Below the pieces are notes generated by a model. It worked only from the letters and a program-made list of their open reading frames with translations, searched no databases and was not told the origin of the DNA. This document shows, in pieces, positions 55,988 through 64,000 of a DNA stretch of 64,000 nt (its first letter is position 1; each line of letters starts with the position of its first letter). Both the position numbers and the translations under genes were made by a program. Source of the DNA: an uncultured Clostridia bacterium (GTDB lineage Bacteria; Bacillota; Clostridia; Christensenellales; Borkfalkiaceae); NCBI GenBank assembly GCA_947624225.1, contig CANQJF010000003.1:1-64000 (forward strand), read 5' to 3'.

Positions 55988-56626
55988 TCACTTGGTGCCG
56001 AAGAGGCGGTCGCCCGCGTCGCCGAGGCCGGGTAGGATGTATCCGTGCTCGTTGAGGCACCTGTCGAGCGTGGAGGCGAACACGCGGACGTCGGGGTGCG
56101 CCGCAACCAGCCGCTCGATGCCCTCGGGTGCGGCAATGATGCACATCATGGTGATGTCCTTTACGCCCCGCTTTTTGAGCGCGGAGATGGCGTCCGCAGC
56201 CGAGCCGCCCGTCGCGAGCATGGGATCCACGACAAAGACTTTCTTCTCCTCGATCCCGTCGGGCAACTTGCAGTAATATTCCTGCGGTTGGAGCGTCTTT
56301 TCGTCGCGGTACATGCCGATGTGCCCCACGCGCGCCGTGGGAAGAACGCGGTGCACGCCGTTGACCATGCCGAGGCCCGCGCGCAAGATGGGCACGATGG
56401 CCACGCTCTCCTCGGGGACGCGGTATTGCACCGTCCTTTCGAGCGGGGTCTCCACTTCCACGGGGATGAGGTCCACATCTTTCATGGCCTCATAGGTCAT
56501 GATGGTGGTGATCTCCTCGATCAGCTCGCGGAATTCTTTCATGCCCGTGTTTTTATCGCGCAAAATGGATACCTTATGCTTGATGAGCGGATGGTCGAAC
56601 ACAAACACATTGGGATACTGTTTCAT
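55988..56626 (-). CDS. upp: uracil phosphoribosyltransferase
   Basis: [42 protein letters not shown]. Confidence 0.97.
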
Positions 56627-56671
56627 AGATTGTCTCCTTCGCAATATTTTTTTGCCGTTCAAAGGCCATGA

Positions 56672-57652
56672 TCACAAAATATCGTGCATGATGGGCTCAT
56701 AGAAGAGTCCCTCGATGTCCTCGTCCCCCGCAAAGGGTAGGATCCACATCAGTTTGCAGACGGCGGATTCGAGCGTCATGCTGCGCGCTTCGAGCACGCG
56801 GCCGAGCTCCTTTAAGCGGTTGCCCACTTCGTATTTGTCGAGAGCGCTCCCCTCGCGCTCCACTTGGGTCGTGAATACCACCGTCTTTCCCATCTGCAAA
56901 AAGAATTGCAGGCGTTCCTCCCAGCCGCCATAGGCGGGGAGCCCGCCCGTGCCGAACGACTCGATGACGAGCGCACTGCAATGGCCGTCTAAGTAGTCGA
57001 AGATGTCCGAAGAGAGCCCGGGGATGAGTTTCAACACGACCACGTCCTCGTCGAGCGCGCGGTAAAACCGCGGTCCGGCGGGCTTGGGCTCGCGAATGTA
57101 GTAAAATGGCTTGCCGTCGCGCATGATGGCCGTATCCGGGAAATCGATGCTCGAAAAGGCATTGTAGCTCCGCGTGCGCGTTTTCTTGGCCCGCGTGCCG
57201 AGGATGACGTTGCCGTCAAACACGACGTGCACCCCCGACGCCCCGTCGTCGGCACAAAAGGCGAACGCATCCGCGAGATTCCTGCGCGCATCCGTATCGC
57301 GCAAATATACCGACTTTTGAGAACCCGTGAGAACGATGGGCTTGGGGCTGTCCTGCACGAGATAGGAGAGCGCGGCGGCGGTATACGCCATGGTGTCGGT
57401 GCCGTGAGTGATCACAAAGCCGTCGAAGTCCGCATAGCGCTCCTCAATGACGCGCGCGATCTCCAACCAATGCGCGGGACAGACGTTGGTGGAATCGAGA
57501 TTGAAAGGCTGGACTTCATCCACGCGGGCGATCTCCCCCAGCTCGGGGACATAGGAGAGGAGCTCGGCCGGCGTAATGGAGGGCGCGAGGCCGTTTTTGG
57601 TGGGTTTGGAGGCGATGGTGCCCCCCGTCGCGATCAAGAGAATTCGTTTCAT
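56672..57652 (-). CDS. ansA: type I L-asparaginase
   Basis: MKRILLIATGGTIASKPT, GFVITHGTDTMAYTAAALSY. Confidence 0.93.
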   Translation of the reverse strand: MKRILLIATGGTIASKPTKNGLAPSITPAELLSYVPELGEIARVDEVQPFNLDSTNVCPAHWLEIARVIEERYADFDGFVITHGTDTMAYTAAALSYLVQDSPKPIVLTGSQKSVYLRDTDARRNLADAFAFCADDGASGVHVVFDGNVILGTRAKKTRTRSYNAFSSIDFPDTAIMRDGKPFYYIREPKPAGPRFYRALDEDVVVLKLIPGLSSDIFDYLDGHCSALVIESFGTGGLPAYGGWEERLQFFLQMGKTVVFTTQVEREGSALDKYEVGNRLKELGRVLEARSMTLESAVCKLMWILPFAGDEDIEGLFYEPIMHDIL

Positions 57653-57706
57653 ATTCCGTCCCGTCCGCACGCTTGCGGTGCGCCGTGTTTTGCGCAATGC
57701 CGTGCG

Positions 57707-58354
57707 CTATGCGCCATACTTTGCGCGATATTCTTTCATGGCGGAGAGAGATTCCCTCCCCCCGATGATCCCGTTTTCGATGGCCGCGATGATGTCACGC
57801 ATGGTCACGATGGAGTAAACGGGAATGCCGTATTCTTCGTAAGCCTCGCGGACCGCCGAGCGTTCCCCCGTGCCCCGTTCCTCGCGGTCCACGGAGATGA
57901 GCACGGCCGCGACATGCACATCCGCCTCGCCGGTGAGCTTGGGAAGAATTTCTCTGAGCGCCTTGCCCGAGGTCATCACGTCCTCGACGATGCAGACGCT
58001 GTCGCCGTCGGTAAGTGGCTGACCCACGAACATGCCCCCCTCGCCGTGGTCCTTGGCCTCTTTCCTGTCGAAGCAGAACCCGACGTCCCTGCCGCGCTGT
58101 GCAAGCGCGATGCTCGTGGCGACGGCGAGCGGGATACCCTTGTAGGCGGGCCCGACGAGCGTTTCGGCTTGAATGCCGTGCTCCAAAAAGCACTCCGCAT
58201 AATACCCGCCGAGCCGCGCGATCTGATCGCCCGTGCGGTATTTTCCCGTGTTGATGAAGTACGGCGCAACTCTTCCGCTCTTTAAGGTAAACTCTCCAAA
58301 GAGCAGCACGCCGCTCTCCGCCATAAACTTGATGAATTCCTCTTTATACGTCAT
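57707..58354 (-). CDS. pyrE: orotate phosphoribosyltransferase
   Basis: LKSGRVAPYFINTGKY, VCIVEDVMTSGKALRE. Confidence 0.96.
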   Translation of the reverse strand: MTYKEEFIKFMAESGVLLFGEFTLKSGRVAPYFINTGKYRTGDQIARLGGYYAECFLEHGIQAETLVGPAYKGIPLAVATSIALAQRGRDVGFCFDRKEAKDHGEGGMFVGQPLTDGDSVCIVEDVMTSGKALREILPKLTGEADVHVAAVLISVDREERGTGERSAVREAYEEYGIPVYSIVTMRDIIAAIENGIIGGRESLSAMKEYRAKYGA

Positions 58355-58366
58355 ATGTCCCTCGCT

Positions 58367-59287
58367 TCAATTCATGGTCAAGGTGCCCGTGAGGTCGCGC
58401 ACGCGCTCCACGCCGTGGAGCGCGTGCGCGACCTCACACCACTTCCCCAGCCCCGCGATGATCTTGGGGCACGCGAGCGCATCAGTGAAATTTTGCGTGC
58501 CCACCTGCACGGCGACCGCACCGGCCATCAAAAATTCCACCGCATCCTCGGCGCACGTGATGCCGCCCATGCCGATGACGGGGATGCCCACCGCGTGGCT
58601 CGCCTCATACACCATGCGCACGGCAATGGGCTTGACGCCCGCACCGGAGACGCCGCCCGTGTTGTTGGCGAGGATGGGCCGCCGCCGCTCAATGTCGATG
58701 GCGAGGCCCGTCAGCGTGTTGATGAGCGACAGACCGTCCGCTCCCCCCGCCTCGGCCGCGCGCGCGTTCTCGGCGATGCTCTCCGCGTTGGGGGAGAGCT
58801 TTACGATGAGTGGTGTCTTTTTTAATGCCGTCTTTGAGACATGGGTGACCTCTTTCACGTCTTGCGGTCGGATCCCAAAGGCCATGCCGCCGCACTTTAC
58901 GTTGGGACAGGAGATGTTGAGCTCCACGAGATCGACGAGCCCGTCCAGACGGGCGCAAATTTCGCCGTAATCGGAGAGCGTCGCCCCCGCAACGTTGGCG
59001 ATGACCTTCGTCTTGCCTCTCAGCCACGCCAAATCGTGCTCGATGAAATGCTTTACTCCGGGATTTTGCAGCCCCACGGCATTCAGGATGACGCCGCGGC
59101 TCTCCGCGATGCGGGGAGTGGGATTCCCGAGGCGGGGCTCCAACGTGAGCCCCTTGGTCGCCACCGCGCCGAGGCAGGAGATATCGTAAATCTCGTCGAA
59201 CTCGCGCCCGAAGCCAAAGGTGCCCGAGGCGGGGATCACGGGATTTTTGAGCTCCACCCCGCAGATGTTTACATGTAGATCGGCCAT
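58367..59287 (-). CDS. pyrD: dihydroorotate dehydrogenase (class 1B-like)
   Basis: NPVIPASGTFGFGREF, LNISCPNVKCGG, VIGMGGITCAEDAVEFLMAGAVAVQVGT; pyrK in operon. Confidence 0.96.
   Translation of the reverse strand: MADLHVNICGVELKNPVIPASGTFGFGREFDEIYDISCLGAVATKGLTLEPRLGNPTPRIAESRGVILNAVGLQNPGVKHFIEHDLAWLRGKTKVIANVAGATLSDYGEICARLDGLVDLVELNISCPNVKCGGMAFGIRPQDVKEVTHVSKTALKKTPLIVKLSPNAESIAENARAAEAGGADGLSLINTLTGLAIDIERRRPILANNTGGVSGAGVKPIAVRMVYEASHAVGIPVIGMGGITCAEDAVEFLMAGAVAVQVGTQNFTDALACPKIIAGLGKWCEVAHALHGVERVRDLTGTLTMN
58389..58437. repeat. perfect inverted repeat, 23-bp arms, 3-nt loop, inside pyrD
   Basis: GTGAGGTCGCGCACGCGCTCCAC GCC GTGGAGCGCGTGCGCGACCTCAC. Confidence 0.97.
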
Positions 59288-59366
59288 GTCGATGTTCCCT
59301 TACAAACGCACTGTTCCGCCGCGCAGTCCCGCCCGGCGGGATAAATTTCCGTCTCGGACAGAACGC

Positions 59367-60119
59367 TCAAAGCTCTATTTCATCCAACCGAAAGACGGGA
59401 CCATCCCTGCAAACGCGGGCATGGATGCCGTCTTTTTTGTCACAGACGCACACGAGGCAGGCGCCGATCCCGCACGCCATGCGCTCTTCGAGGGAGACAT
59501 AGACGGGGATATCGCGGCCCTCCGTTGCGCGCTTCAAGGCGCGGAGCATGGGCGTCGGCCCGCATGCGAGCACGGCATCCGGCCGCACGTCGTCGATGTC
59601 CGCAAGAAATGCCTGCACCGCCGTTCCCCTCACACCGCACGAACCGTCGTCTGTGCAGAGAACGAGCTTCTCGCCGCACTCCAACTCATGGGAAAGGCAG
59701 ACCGCCTCGCGGTTCCGAAAGCCCATGTATGAAAAAAGCTGTTTTTGGTTTTGAAATTCCCGAAGCGCCGCAATGAGCGGAAACACGCCGACACCGCCGC
59801 CCACCAAAGCGATCCGCTTCTCCTCGGGCTTCAAACAAAATCCGTTGCCGAGCGGCAGGGTGACAGAAATGCGCTCTCCCGCACTGTGTTCCTCGGCCAG
59901 CGCCCTCGTTCCCGCCCCCCTCACTTGGTAGCAGACGGTGATCCGCTCCTCCTCGGCCTTGCAGACGGCGAGCGGCCTCTTCAACGGAAACCCCGGCACA
60001 CCGACCATGCAAAATTGCCCGCAGCGGACGGCCACCCTCTCCTGGATGGCAAACATGAGGGAATAGATGCCCGGCGCGATGGGCTTATTTTCCAAAATCA
60101 GGGCGTCGAACTCAGGCAT
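59367..60119 (-). CDS. pyrK: dihydroorotate dehydrogenase electron transfer subunit
   Basis: FAD/NAD domain GGGVGVFPLIAAL; Fe-S Cys motif ERMACGIGACLVCVC. Confidence 0.95.
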   Translation of the reverse strand: MPEFDALILENKPIAPGIYSLMFAIQERVAVRCGQFCMVGVPGFPLKRPLAVCKAEEERITVCYQVRGAGTRALAEEHSAGERISVTLPLGNGFCLKPEEKRIALVGGGVGVFPLIAALREFQNQKQLFSYMGFRNREAVCLSHELECGEKLVLCTDDGSCGVRGTAVQAFLADIDDVRPDAVLACGPTPMLRALKRATEGRDIPVYVSLEERMACGIGACLVCVCDKKDGIHARVCRDGPVFRLDEIEL

Positions 60120-61002
60120 GGATGTCTCCCAAGACGGACAGCAGGTCCTCCCGCATCTTGCGCGCGGCATCGCGCGCACAGAGCCCCACGCGGCCGCCGT
60201 CATGTTGGTAAGCGTCTGTATGACGGTAGGCGCACAGGATGCCGCGGGAGTTGTTCACGATGCCGCCCATGCCCCCCTCTTTGAAGCAATTTTTGAGCAT
60301 TCGGGCGTTGGCGCCCTGTGCCCCGTAGCCGGGAATGAGGAAGAAAGAGTGCGGCATGCGCCCGCGGAGGACCTTTGCCTCCTCGGGATAGGTCGCCCCC
60401 ACGACGGCTCCCACGCGAGAGTAGCCGTATTTGCCGCAAGCGTCCCTGCCCCACTGCTCCACCATATCCCCCATGCACTCATACACGGTGCGCCCGTCGG
60501 CGAGTTTTTGGTCCTGCAATTCGCCCGAGGAGGGATTGCTCGTCTTTACCAGCACAAAGATGCCCTTGTCCGCCTCCCCGGCCCTTGCGAGAAAGGGGAC
60601 AATACCGTCCGTGCCGAGGTAGCCGTTGACGGTGAGGAGGTCGACATAGCTGCCGAGCTCTCGCTCGAAATAGGCCCTTGCATACTGTTCCGCCGTAGCG
60701 CCGATGTCGTTCCGCTTGCAGTCGGCAATGACGAACAGCCCGTGCTCCTTGGCACAAATACAGGTATCGCGGAAGCACTTCATGCCGTCGGCCCCGATGG
60801 CTTCATAGTAGGCAATTTGGATCTTCACGGCGGGGACGAGCTCGGACACGGCGCCGATGATCTCCTCGTTGAAGCGGTAGATGTCGCCCGCCCAATGCCG
60901 TTCGTCGGTCGTGCCGGGCAGGTATTCGGGCGAGGTGTCCAGCCCCACGCAAGCGGGATTTTGCTTTTCGATGATTTTTTCTATAAGACTGTCGAAAATC
61001 AT
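60112..61002 (-). CDS. pyrF: orotidine 5'-phosphate decarboxylase
   Basis: CVGLDTSPEYLP, GLFVIADCKRNDIGATAEQYA. Confidence 0.96.
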   Translation of the reverse strand: MIFDSLIEKIIEKQNPACVGLDTSPEYLPGTTDERHWAGDIYRFNEEIIGAVSELVPAVKIQIAYYEAIGADGMKCFRDTCICAKEHGLFVIADCKRNDIGATAEQYARAYFERELGSYVDLLTVNGYLGTDGIVPFLARAGEADKGIFVLVKTSNPSSGELQDQKLADGRTVYECMGDMVEQWGRDACGKYGYSRVGAVVGATYPEEAKVLRGRMPHSFFLIPGYGAQGANARMLKNCFKEGGMGGIVNNSRGILCAYRHTDAYQHDGGRVGLCARDAARKMREDLLSVLGDIHA

Positions 61003-62273
61003 GCGCGCGCCTCCCTGTATTTGATCTCTCCGTCCGAGAGGGTATATTTGACCCTGCCCTGCAACTTCTTGCCGGCAAACGGGGTGTTCTTGCCCTTGGA
61101 GACGAACGCGGCGGGATCCACCCTCCAACTCTCGTTCAAATCGGCGAGCATGAGATCCGCGGGCGCGCCCACGGCGATCTCCCCGCCCGTCAGCGACAAA
61201 ATGCCGGCGGGATTTGCGCTCATGAGGGCAGAGAGCTTGGGGAGCGAGAACCCGTTCTCGCACACGAGCACAGTGTAGGAGAGCGCAAAGGAGGTCTCCA
61301 ACCCGCTGATCCCAAAGGCCGCATCGTTGAATTCCACGTTCTTGTCGTCGGCATGGTGCGGGGCATGGTCGGAGGCAATGCAGTCGAGCGTGCCGTCTTT
61401 GAGCCCCGCGATGACGGCAACTCTGTCCCGCTCCGCGCGGAGCGGCGGGTTGACTTTGGCATTGGGATCGAAGTCGCGGATGGCCGCATCGGTCAGCGTA
61501 AAGTAGTGCGGGCAGGTCTCCGCCGTCACTTTCACACCGCGTGCCTTTGCTTCCCGGATGAGTTGGATGCCGCTGTACGTCGAGACATGGCAGATGTGGA
61601 CGGGCAGTTCCAAACTCTCGGCGAGGCAGAGCTCCCGCGCGATCATGATGTCCTCCGCCGCCCGAAGGCTGCCTTTGAGGCCCGTCAGCGTGGAATAATC
61701 CCCCTCGTGCACGACGGCGCCGTCGACGAGCGAGGCGTCCTCGCAATGGCAGAGGCATTTGAGGCCGAAATCGGATGCGTACAGCATCGCCTTTGCCATG
61801 AGCGCGCTGTTTTGCACGCTCTTCCCGTCCTCGGAGAGTGCAACGGCCCCCGCCGCTTTCATGCCCCCGATGGCCGCGAGCGCCTCCCCCTTTTGTCCCT
61901 CCGTGATCGCCCCGATGGGATGCACTTTGCAGAGACCGACTTCCCTCGCCCGCGCTTTCACATAGGTGACGACGACCTTGTTGTCGATCACGGGCCGCGT
62001 GTTCGGCATGCAGCAAATTTGCGTAAATCCGCCCTTGACCGCGGACATGGTACCCGTCTCGATGGTCTCTTTCTTCTCGAACCCGGGATCGCGAAGATGC
62101 ACGTGCATATCGATGAGCCCGGGGAAAGCGGTCAGTCCCGCCGCCTCCAAGACCTCCTCGTTTTCCGGGGGATCGAGGGTGGGCGCGATTTGGGTAAACA
62201 GTCCTCCCTCTATGCGGATATCCGATTTCCGTACGCCGTCCGAAAAGACAACGTCTGCACCGCGGATGAGCAT
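60999..62273 (-). CDS. pyrC: dihydroorotase
   Basis: FPGLIDMHVHLRDPGFEKKETIETG, IASDHAPHHADDK. Confidence 0.97.
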   Translation of the reverse strand: MLIRGADVVFSDGVRKSDIRIEGGLFTQIAPTLDPPENEEVLEAAGLTAFPGLIDMHVHLRDPGFEKKETIETGTMSAVKGGFTQICCMPNTRPVIDNKVVVTYVKARAREVGLCKVHPIGAITEGQKGEALAAIGGMKAAGAVALSEDGKSVQNSALMAKAMLYASDFGLKCLCHCEDASLVDGAVVHEGDYSTLTGLKGSLRAAEDIMIARELCLAESLELPVHICHVSTYSGIQLIREAKARGVKVTAETCPHYFTLTDAAIRDFDPNAKVNPPLRAERDRVAVIAGLKDGTLDCIASDHAPHHADDKNVEFNDAAFGISGLETSFALSYTVLVCENGFSLPKLSALMSANPAGILSLTGGEIAVGAPADLMLADLNESWRVDPAAFVSKGKNTPFAGKKLQGRVKYTLSDGEIKYREARA

Positions 62274-62274
62274 T

Positions 62275-63189
62275 TCAGTCCTCCTTTCCAAGTAATGCAA
62301 GCATGGACATCCGCACCGCGACGCCCGAAAGAACTTGATCTTCGATTTTGCTCGTATCGCCGTCGATGAGGGCGGAGGTGAGTTCTACGCCCCTGTTGAC
62401 GGGCCCGGGGTGCATGATCAGCGCGCCCGGTTTTGCATATTTTATGACTTCCTCGTTCGCTCCGTAATACTTTGCAAACTCGCCGAGCGAGGGAAAATTC
62501 CCCGCCTTTTGGCGTTCGAGCTGGATGCGAAGGCCCATCACGACGTCGGCGCCATCGACGGCCTCTTCGCGGGAGGAGCAGATCTTCGCGCCCAATTTTT
62601 CGATGCCCGCGGGGATGAGCGTGCGCGGCCCGAACATTGTCACCTGCGCGCCGAGCTTCGTGAGCCCATATAGATTGCTCTTTGCTACGCGGGAGTGATA
62701 GATATCCCCGAGAATGGCCACTTTCAACCCGGAGATCTTGCCGAAATGTTCGCGCATGGTCAGCATGTCGAGCAGGGCCTGCGAGGGGTGCTCGTTCATG
62801 CCGTCCCCCGCATTGATGACGTGCGCCCTCACCGTCTTTGCCAAAAGGCGCGCCGCGCCCGACGCGGGATGGCGGATGACCATCACGTCGTTCTGCATGG
62901 CGTCTAACGTCTTTCCCGTGTCGACGAGCGTCTCCCCTTTCTGCACGGAGGAGGCCGCGACGGAGATGTTTACCACCTGTGCGCCCAAAAATTTGCCCGC
63001 AAGCTCAAAGGAGCAGCGCGTGCGGGTGGAATTCTCATAGAAGAGGGTCACCATGGATTTCCCCGACAGCGCGTGAAAGACCTTGTTGCCCCGTTTGAGC
63101 TCTGATTTATAGGCGAGGCCGCGCGTCAGGATCTCGTCGATGACGGCAGCCTCCATGTCATAGAGACCGAGGATATCCTTTTGATTCAT
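62275..63189 (-). CDS. pyrB: aspartate carbamoyltransferase catalytic subunit
   Basis: LFYENSTRTRCSFELAGKFLGA, VIRHPASGA, ALLDMLTM, MHPGPVNRGVE. Confidence 0.97.
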   Translation of the reverse strand: MNQKDILGLYDMEAAVIDEILTRGLAYKSELKRGNKVFHALSGKSMVTLFYENSTRTRCSFELAGKFLGAQVVNISVAASSVQKGETLVDTGKTLDAMQNDVMVIRHPASGAARLLAKTVRAHVINAGDGMNEHPSQALLDMLTMREHFGKISGLKVAILGDIYHSRVAKSNLYGLTKLGAQVTMFGPRTLIPAGIEKLGAKICSSREEAVDGADVVMGLRIQLERQKAGNFPSLGEFAKYYGANEEVIKYAKPGALIMHPGPVNRGVELTSALIDGDTSKIEDQVLSGVAVRMSMLALLGKED

Positions 63190-63200
63190 GTGTTCCTCTG

Positions 63201-63234
63201 AAAAAAGTCTTACGGCAATTGCCGCAAGACTTTT
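63201..63234 (-). terminator. leader terminator (attenuator) upstream of pyrB
   Basis: minus strand AAAAGUCUUGCGGC AAUU GCCGUAAGACUUUUUU. Confidence 0.85.
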
Positions 63235-63287
63235 CATGCTCATCAATCCGTCTTGACGGCAAAAAAATGCCGCATGAAGCCGTTAAA

Positions 63288-63317
63288 ATTATACCATGAA
63301 GGGACAGTGCTTGTAAA
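63288..63317 (-). promoter_or_regulatory. pyr operon promoter TTTACA-N18-TATAAT (TGGTATAAT)
   Basis: -35 63312-63317, -10 63288-63293. Confidence 0.75.
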
Positions 63318-63322
63318 GCATT

Positions 63323-64000
63323 TCAAAGAATTTCCGTGAGGGAAAATTTCGTCTTGTCGCAAGAGGTGAGAAAGTATTCGATCCCCGCTTTCTCCGCGCG
63401 GAGCGGGAAGTATCCGGTGCCGTGCAGGTGGCCGAAGATCACCTTTTCCACGCCGTTTTTCTCAAAGAGTTCGGTGAACAGCGTGTCCTCTTTTTTGATG
63501 GAAAAGGGCGGGAAATGGATGAGCGCCAACAGACGGTCCCCCTCTTTTTTCACCTTTTCCGCCTCCCGAAAGGCAAGGCGAAAGCGCTCGGCCTCGCGCA
63601 AATACAGCTTCATGTCCTGCTCCTTAAAATCGACGCTGGCGGGGCAAGTCCATCCGCGGGAGCCCACGATCACCAAATTTTCGAGGCGGATGCAGTCGTT
63701 TTGCAGGAAGTAAAACCCATTGGGGGCCATTTCACGGATGCGGGAGATGCCGTTCCACCAATAATCGTGATTGCCGCGGATCAAAACTTTGCGCCCCGGG
63801 AGTTCCTCCAAGGAGCGCACGTCGAACATGCCCTCCTCAGGTTTCATGCCCCACGAGGTGTCGCCGCCGATGAGAACGATATCCTCGGCTCTGACTTTTT
63901 CGCGCCAATCGGCCTTGATTTTGTCGAAGTGACCTTCCCACCCGGGTCCGAAGATATCCATCGGCTTATTGGCCATCCCGGATAGATGCAGGTCGCTGAT
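63323..64000 (-). CDS. metallophosphoesterase (calcineurin-like), truncated by the window edge
   Basis: ISDLHLSGMANKPMDIFGPGWEGH...IVLIGGDTSWGM...LIRGNHDYWW...IFGHLHGTG; reading frame continues to 64000. Confidence 0.92.
   Translation of the reverse strand: MSDLHLSGMANKPMDIFGPGWEGHFDKIKADWREKVRAEDIVLIGGDTSWGMKPEEGMFDVRSLEELPGRKVLIRGNHDYWWNGISRIREMAPNGFYFLQNDCIRLENLVIVGSRGWTCPASVDFKEQDMKLYLREAERFRLAFREAEKVKKEGDRLLALIHFPPFSIKKEDTLFTELFEKNGVEKVIFGHLHGTGYFPLRAEKAGIEYFLTSCDKTKFSLTEIL

Follow-up and report, generated by a model that had tools for sequence, protein, structure and literature searches.

The window, the 64,000-nt stretch of DNA analysed here, carries on its minus strand a pyr operon that opens with pyrB (ATG at 63189) and is preceded by a short leader, a promoter and a phosphoesterase gene (Table 1). 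Present in 99 of the 103 genomes of the genus, this phosphoesterase served as our synteny anchor for locating the locus in relatives. The promoter is also kept in the sister species G104, and the likely transcription start, estimated from sequence, lies within UUUUAACGG.

Table 1. Features of the pyr leader and neighbouring genes in the window.
Feature	Position	Strand	Evidence or remark
Calcineurin-like phosphoesterase, upstream of leader	63323..63976	-	Pfam Metallophos 4e-12
Promoter TTTACA-18-TATAAT	63288..63317	-	11/12 consensus matches; 1 found vs 0.2 expected in shuffles
Possible leader ORF MRHFFAVKTD*, overlapping P1	63243..63275	-	Sequence; no Shine-Dalgarno
P1, anti-antiterminator hairpin CGGCA-UUUUUU-UGCCG	63257..63272	-	Homologue of PyrR binding loop, CNGNGA hexaloop replaced
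Antiterminator (AT) 5' arm GCCG(U)CAAGAC	63250..63260	-	GCCG(A)CAAGAC in nearly all pyrR-bearing relatives
GUCUUGCGGC, AT 3' arm shared as terminator 5' arm	63221..63230	-	Sequence and fold
Intrinsic terminator (T), 14 bp, loop AAUU, U tract	63201..63234	-	-21.1 kcal/mol alone
Shine-Dalgarno AGAGGA of pyrB	63194..63199	-	Sequence
pyrB, aspartate carbamoyltransferase catalytic chain	62275..63189	-	Pfam OTCace_N 3.8e-42, OTCace 4e-23
Operon remainder: pyrC, pyrF, pyrK, pyrD, pyrE, asparaginase (ansA), upp	55988..62273	-	Pfam hits

Folding the leader (ViennaRNA, 37 C, from the estimated start site) yields three predicted structures built from overlapping segments of the minus strand. P1 consists of CGGCA (63272-63268), a U6 loop (63267-63262) and UGCCG (63261-63257), the AT duplex pairs GCCG-U-CAAGAC (63260-63250) with GUCUUGCGGC (63230-63221) in 10 bp with one bulged U (-13.5 kcal/mol), and T is a perfect 14-bp stem of AAAAGUCUUGCGGC (63234-63221) and GCCGUAAGACUUUU (63216-63203) around its AAUU loop, with P1 and T together reaching -29.2 kcal/mol. 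Because P1 and AT have the GCCG at 63260-63257 in common, and AT and T have 63230-63221 in common, the three are mutually exclusive, just as the original prediction for 63190-63293 had it, and its anti-antiterminator/antiterminator/terminator logic before pyrB is supported, with pyrBCFKDE as the target operon. The fold of 63170-63310 is better than that of shuffled sequences (z = -3.1), and the AT duplex outscores 300 of 300 shuffles of the leader. T went unflagged by a simple terminator scanner; the probable reason is that the stem runs into the U tract. Searching the AT pairing for covariation gave no excess over shuffles; covariation is not demonstrable here because the arms, being nearly invariant, offer too little variation for the test. 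Two further candidates were set aside: a long fold, GGCUUCAUGC/GCAUGAAAAGUC, which is specific to the window and not conserved in G104, and an in-frame ATG at 63237, a start that would lengthen PyrB across the terminator and has no counterpart in G104.

To place this leader, we turn to the congeners that encode the attenuation protein PyrR, in which the locus is ordered phosphoesterase, leader, pyrR, pyrB: pyrR directly follows the anchor in 39 loci, and pyrB comes next in nearly all of them. The sequence preceding pyrR in these relatives (UCUUUAAGAGCGGYACCGUGAUGCCGACAAGAC...GUCUUGCGGY...terminator) is, judged by its elements, a PyrR attenuator, with a CGGYA/UGCCG stem, a CNGNGA hexaloop and a UUUAAG internal loop, followed by AT and T. 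The hexaloop occurs in 38 of the 39 pyrR-bearing loci (37 by strict pattern, L042 having CGGCGA with a closing mismatch), and its true form is absent from 15 pyrR-less leaders (loci with an intergenic leader longer than 60 nt), while UUUAAG is found in 38/39 pyrR-bearing loci versus 0/15 pyrR-less leaders. The arms of the window leader match those of the congeners almost letter for letter, with the hexaloop now UUUUUU and UUUAAG lost. On the evidence of synteny and near-identical arms, the window leader is thus of common descent with the PyrR attenuators, and the separate, non-PyrR origin that had been implied for it finds no support, its arms being homologous and nearly identical to those that about 40 congeners carry at this locus.

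Standard family models are silent here. An Rfam scan of the leader returned nothing usable at either threshold and no family match, and RF00515, Rfam's PyrR model, found no PyrR site across the genus, even directly before pyrR, so that its silence at the window leader is not evidence because it also fails on the pyrR-bearing congeners. In the genus's PyrR sites the top of the upper stem is unlike the Bacillus consensus. R1, a custom 33-nt covariance model of the PyrR site built from the genus's own sites, matches in 41 of 47 PyrR-encoding genomes and in 0 of 56 lacking PyrR (103 genomes; Fisher 1e-22). RF00515 does not match the window leader, and R1 matches neither the leader nor any other place in its genome. 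The only PyrR-like protein match in that genome is weak and belongs to hypoxanthine phosphoribosyltransferase (HPRT), in an assembly that is 98% complete. The earlier statement that the leader has no PyrR site and the window no pyrR is therefore correct and extends to the whole genome. The leader is a PyrR attenuator by descent and logic; by definition it is one no longer, because both the regulator and the recognition loop proved absent when tested.

This absence is widespread in the genus. Thirty-one genomes, that of the window included, have pyrB and lack PyrR, with an R1 site in none, and all pyrR-less pyrB loci fall within one clade of 53 loci (SH-aLRT 99). Several separate losses are likely because only three pyrR genes remain in this clade, all coding for shortened proteins; we leave the number of losses unstated because many forks of the tree are weak. 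The three shortened proteins (L042, L048, L077) lack some 15-20 residues around TRDDLVSAFFVPDA, with PRPP-loop residues altered too in two of them, and their sequences suggest a PyrR caught partway through degeneration. In most PyrR-bearing genomes there is also a second PyrR paralogue (about 45-53% identical), which lies away from the pyr operon (e.g., G035:C17:22686-23180) and has likewise been lost from all 31 pyrB-bearing, PyrR-less genomes. Separately, pyrB went undetected in about 30 of the 103 genomes, a sign that de novo pyrimidine synthesis may have been lost repeatedly.

Leaders left without pyrR have met different fates. A terminator hairpin homologous to T is kept in 13 of the 15 sampled, eight of which retain the terminator with AT complementarity at chance level (L046, L062, L073, L075, L078, L086, L100, L126); in the window's clade AT complementarity is kept (shuffle fraction <=0.01). 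At 16 further loci the leader is deleted and pyrB abuts the upstream gene, and L035 and L047 have lost the pyr biosynthetic genes from this locus but not the promoter, leader and terminator, which now lie directly upstream of ansA. The window's exact leader form with an intact operon occurs in only two species, its own and G104.

Comparing these two species, we asked how much constraint has acted on the leader since the loss. Neither has pyrR, and they have the derived segment ACGGCUUCAUGCGGCA in common (16/16 identical); the loss of pyrR therefore predates their split. Between the two species, identity at fourfold-degenerate sites is 63% in one flanking gene and 66% in the other, our measure of neutral identity, which codon usage may bias. 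Against this, 35 of 37 bases of the attenuator arms are identical (binomial P ~3e-5 under 0.65), among them all 17 of those that make up the P1 arms and the 5' arm of AT, both changes preserve pairing as G-U, and the linker is mostly different. These figures bear on a reading in which the leader is a decaying relic, with no selection for switching after pyrR loss, only promoter and terminator mattering, and the P1 and AT arms persisting through the short time elapsed. A decay series within the genus, from the intact leader with pyrR through the eight terminator-only leaders to the 16 deletions and the leaders stranded before ansA, favours such a reading; yet arms this well preserved beside a largely changed linker at about 65% fourfold identity argue against it, as does the different, stronger P1 of L035 and L037 (6 bp with a triloop). 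We regard decay as an unlikely but serious possibility, and the window leader is, from these comparisons, probably not just a relic.

Calculated energies point to a shift in balance after the regulator was lost. P1 has a stability of -7.0 kcal/mol in the window, -6.7 in G104 and -8.0 in L037 and L035, and of -3.9 or -5.9 in pyrR-bearing relatives, and because the window's P1 is thus the stronger, P1 would approximately equal AT in stability without any protein. We evaluated P1 against AT in constrained ensembles, taking the transcript at the point where the terminator's 3' arm is about to be made. Over 38 pyrR-bearing leaders P1 minus AT has a median of +3.8 kcal/mol (AT favoured); the values are 0.0 for the window, -0.3 for G104, -0.5 for L037 and -5.9 for L035 (P1 favoured). 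The shift is significant by Mann-Whitney (P = 0.002), a value that overstates the evidence because the four pyrR-less leaders are related and non-independent, and small or reversed gaps also occur in pyrR-bearing L077, L097, L042 and L069; the size of the shift depends, moreover, on ViennaRNA folding at 37 C and on the estimated start site. Added to the homology, the loss of regulator and site and the constraint on three retained helices that comparison establishes, this calculated balance suggests that the RNA alone would do part of the job that PyrR does elsewhere.

We therefore favour, as a reasonably probable reading, an orphaned PyrR attenuator that has been retained as a PyrR-independent, poised attenuator. 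Its ancestor would have been a standard PyrR-dependent attenuator before pyrR-pyrB, and the lineage would then have lost pyrR (both paralogues) together with the PyrR-binding hexaloop and internal-loop sequence, retaining P1, AT and T as P1 gained intrinsic stability and the leader became PyrR-independent. As the RNA emerges, P1 would be the first structure to fold, as step-by-step folding leads us to infer; in a fraction of transcripts it would persist, allowing the terminator to form and transcription to stop before pyrB, and in the remainder AT would displace P1 and the operon would be read. Such partial termination would presumably be of benefit by capping pyr expression after loss of the repressor. 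A reason to re-balance may be seen in Streptococcus pneumoniae, where, according to PMC6296669, a PyrR-site mutant shows constitutive pyr overexpression with a fitness cost and a locked terminator causes a severe growth defect without uracil. By analogy, poising the switch would steer clear of overexpression and locked termination alike.

Other mechanisms could act on the same structures. The leader might be a protein-free kinetic sensor, in which P1 and AT are nearly isoenergetic, P1 folds first, and slow, UTP-limited transcription of the U-rich loop and linker gives AT time to displace P1, so that read-through would rise as UTP falls; we think this rather improbable. UTP could also be sensed as at the enterobacterial pyrBI operon, with a ribosome on the short ORF (AUG 63275, MRHFFAVKTD) trailing a polymerase that pauses at the U7 tract when UTP is scarce and so blocking the terminator. 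An in-frame ORF of like length (MRQLFAVKT* in G104) and a U-rich stretch are indeed found in both species, and the window's ORF stops short of the terminator, but it has no Shine-Dalgarno sequence, transcription probably starts only ~10 nt away from its AUG, its codon changes between window and G104 are non-synonymous, and the equivalent stretch of L037, L046, L073 and L086 shows neither an AUG nor any counterpart. From its sequence the ORF is probably fortuitous, and we hold a pyrBI-like mechanism to be very unlikely.

Recognition of the altered loop of P1, or of the conserved stretch ACGGCUUCAUG, by some other trans-acting factor or small ligand would fit the complete identity of derived ACGGCUUCAUGCGGCA in the two species, though the leader has no Rfam family match and P1 loops vary among pyrR-less leaders, even between the window and its sister, and we hold this to be still more improbable. 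That PyrR is present but unassembled, with the leader as its non-canonical target, seems to us extremely unlikely: the assembly comprises 67 contigs and the genome is therefore not closed, yet it is 98% complete, the pyr locus sits inside a 79-kb contig without pyrR, and the 31 pyrB-bearing congeners without PyrR (own genome included) all lack the site.

The poised, PyrR-independent attenuator that we favour can be set beside known systems. PyrR attenuation in B. subtilis is reviewed in PMC7430163. Compared with such attenuators (RF00515), the window leader has the same locus logic, homologous AT and T arms, an anti-antiterminator in the same position and a pyr operon as target, and differs in that its genome lacks PyrR, CNGNGA and the UUUAAG internal loop are lost, and P1 is by calculation intrinsically as stable as AT. 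The Escherichia coli pyrBI attenuator places a terminator before pyrB behind a U-rich leader, needs no repressor protein and has no antiterminator/anti-antiterminator pair; the window leader is like it in terminator and U-rich leader and would likewise act with no repressor, and is unlike it in having that pair and probably no translated leader peptide. Bacillus subtilis pyrG has a reiterative-transcription attenuator that is PyrR-independent and nucleotide-linked, its antiterminator being made by slippage. The window leader may resemble it in PyrR-independent attenuation in a Gram-positive, but no 5' GGGC start motif is seen at the likely start, and AT is encoded rather than made by slippage. 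No description of a retained, PyrR-free derivative of a PyrR attenuator was found in the literature searched, whose coverage was partial.

Taken on these terms, the window leader would be a regulatory RNA caught after the loss of its protein partner, within a genus whose apparently true PyrR sites are missed throughout by Rfam's PyrR model. All the stages are represented within this one genus: the switch intact, PyrR shortened, a switch that would be rebalanced and protein-free, the terminator alone, and the leader missing. The fate of an attenuator after the loss of its regulator is therefore directly testable.
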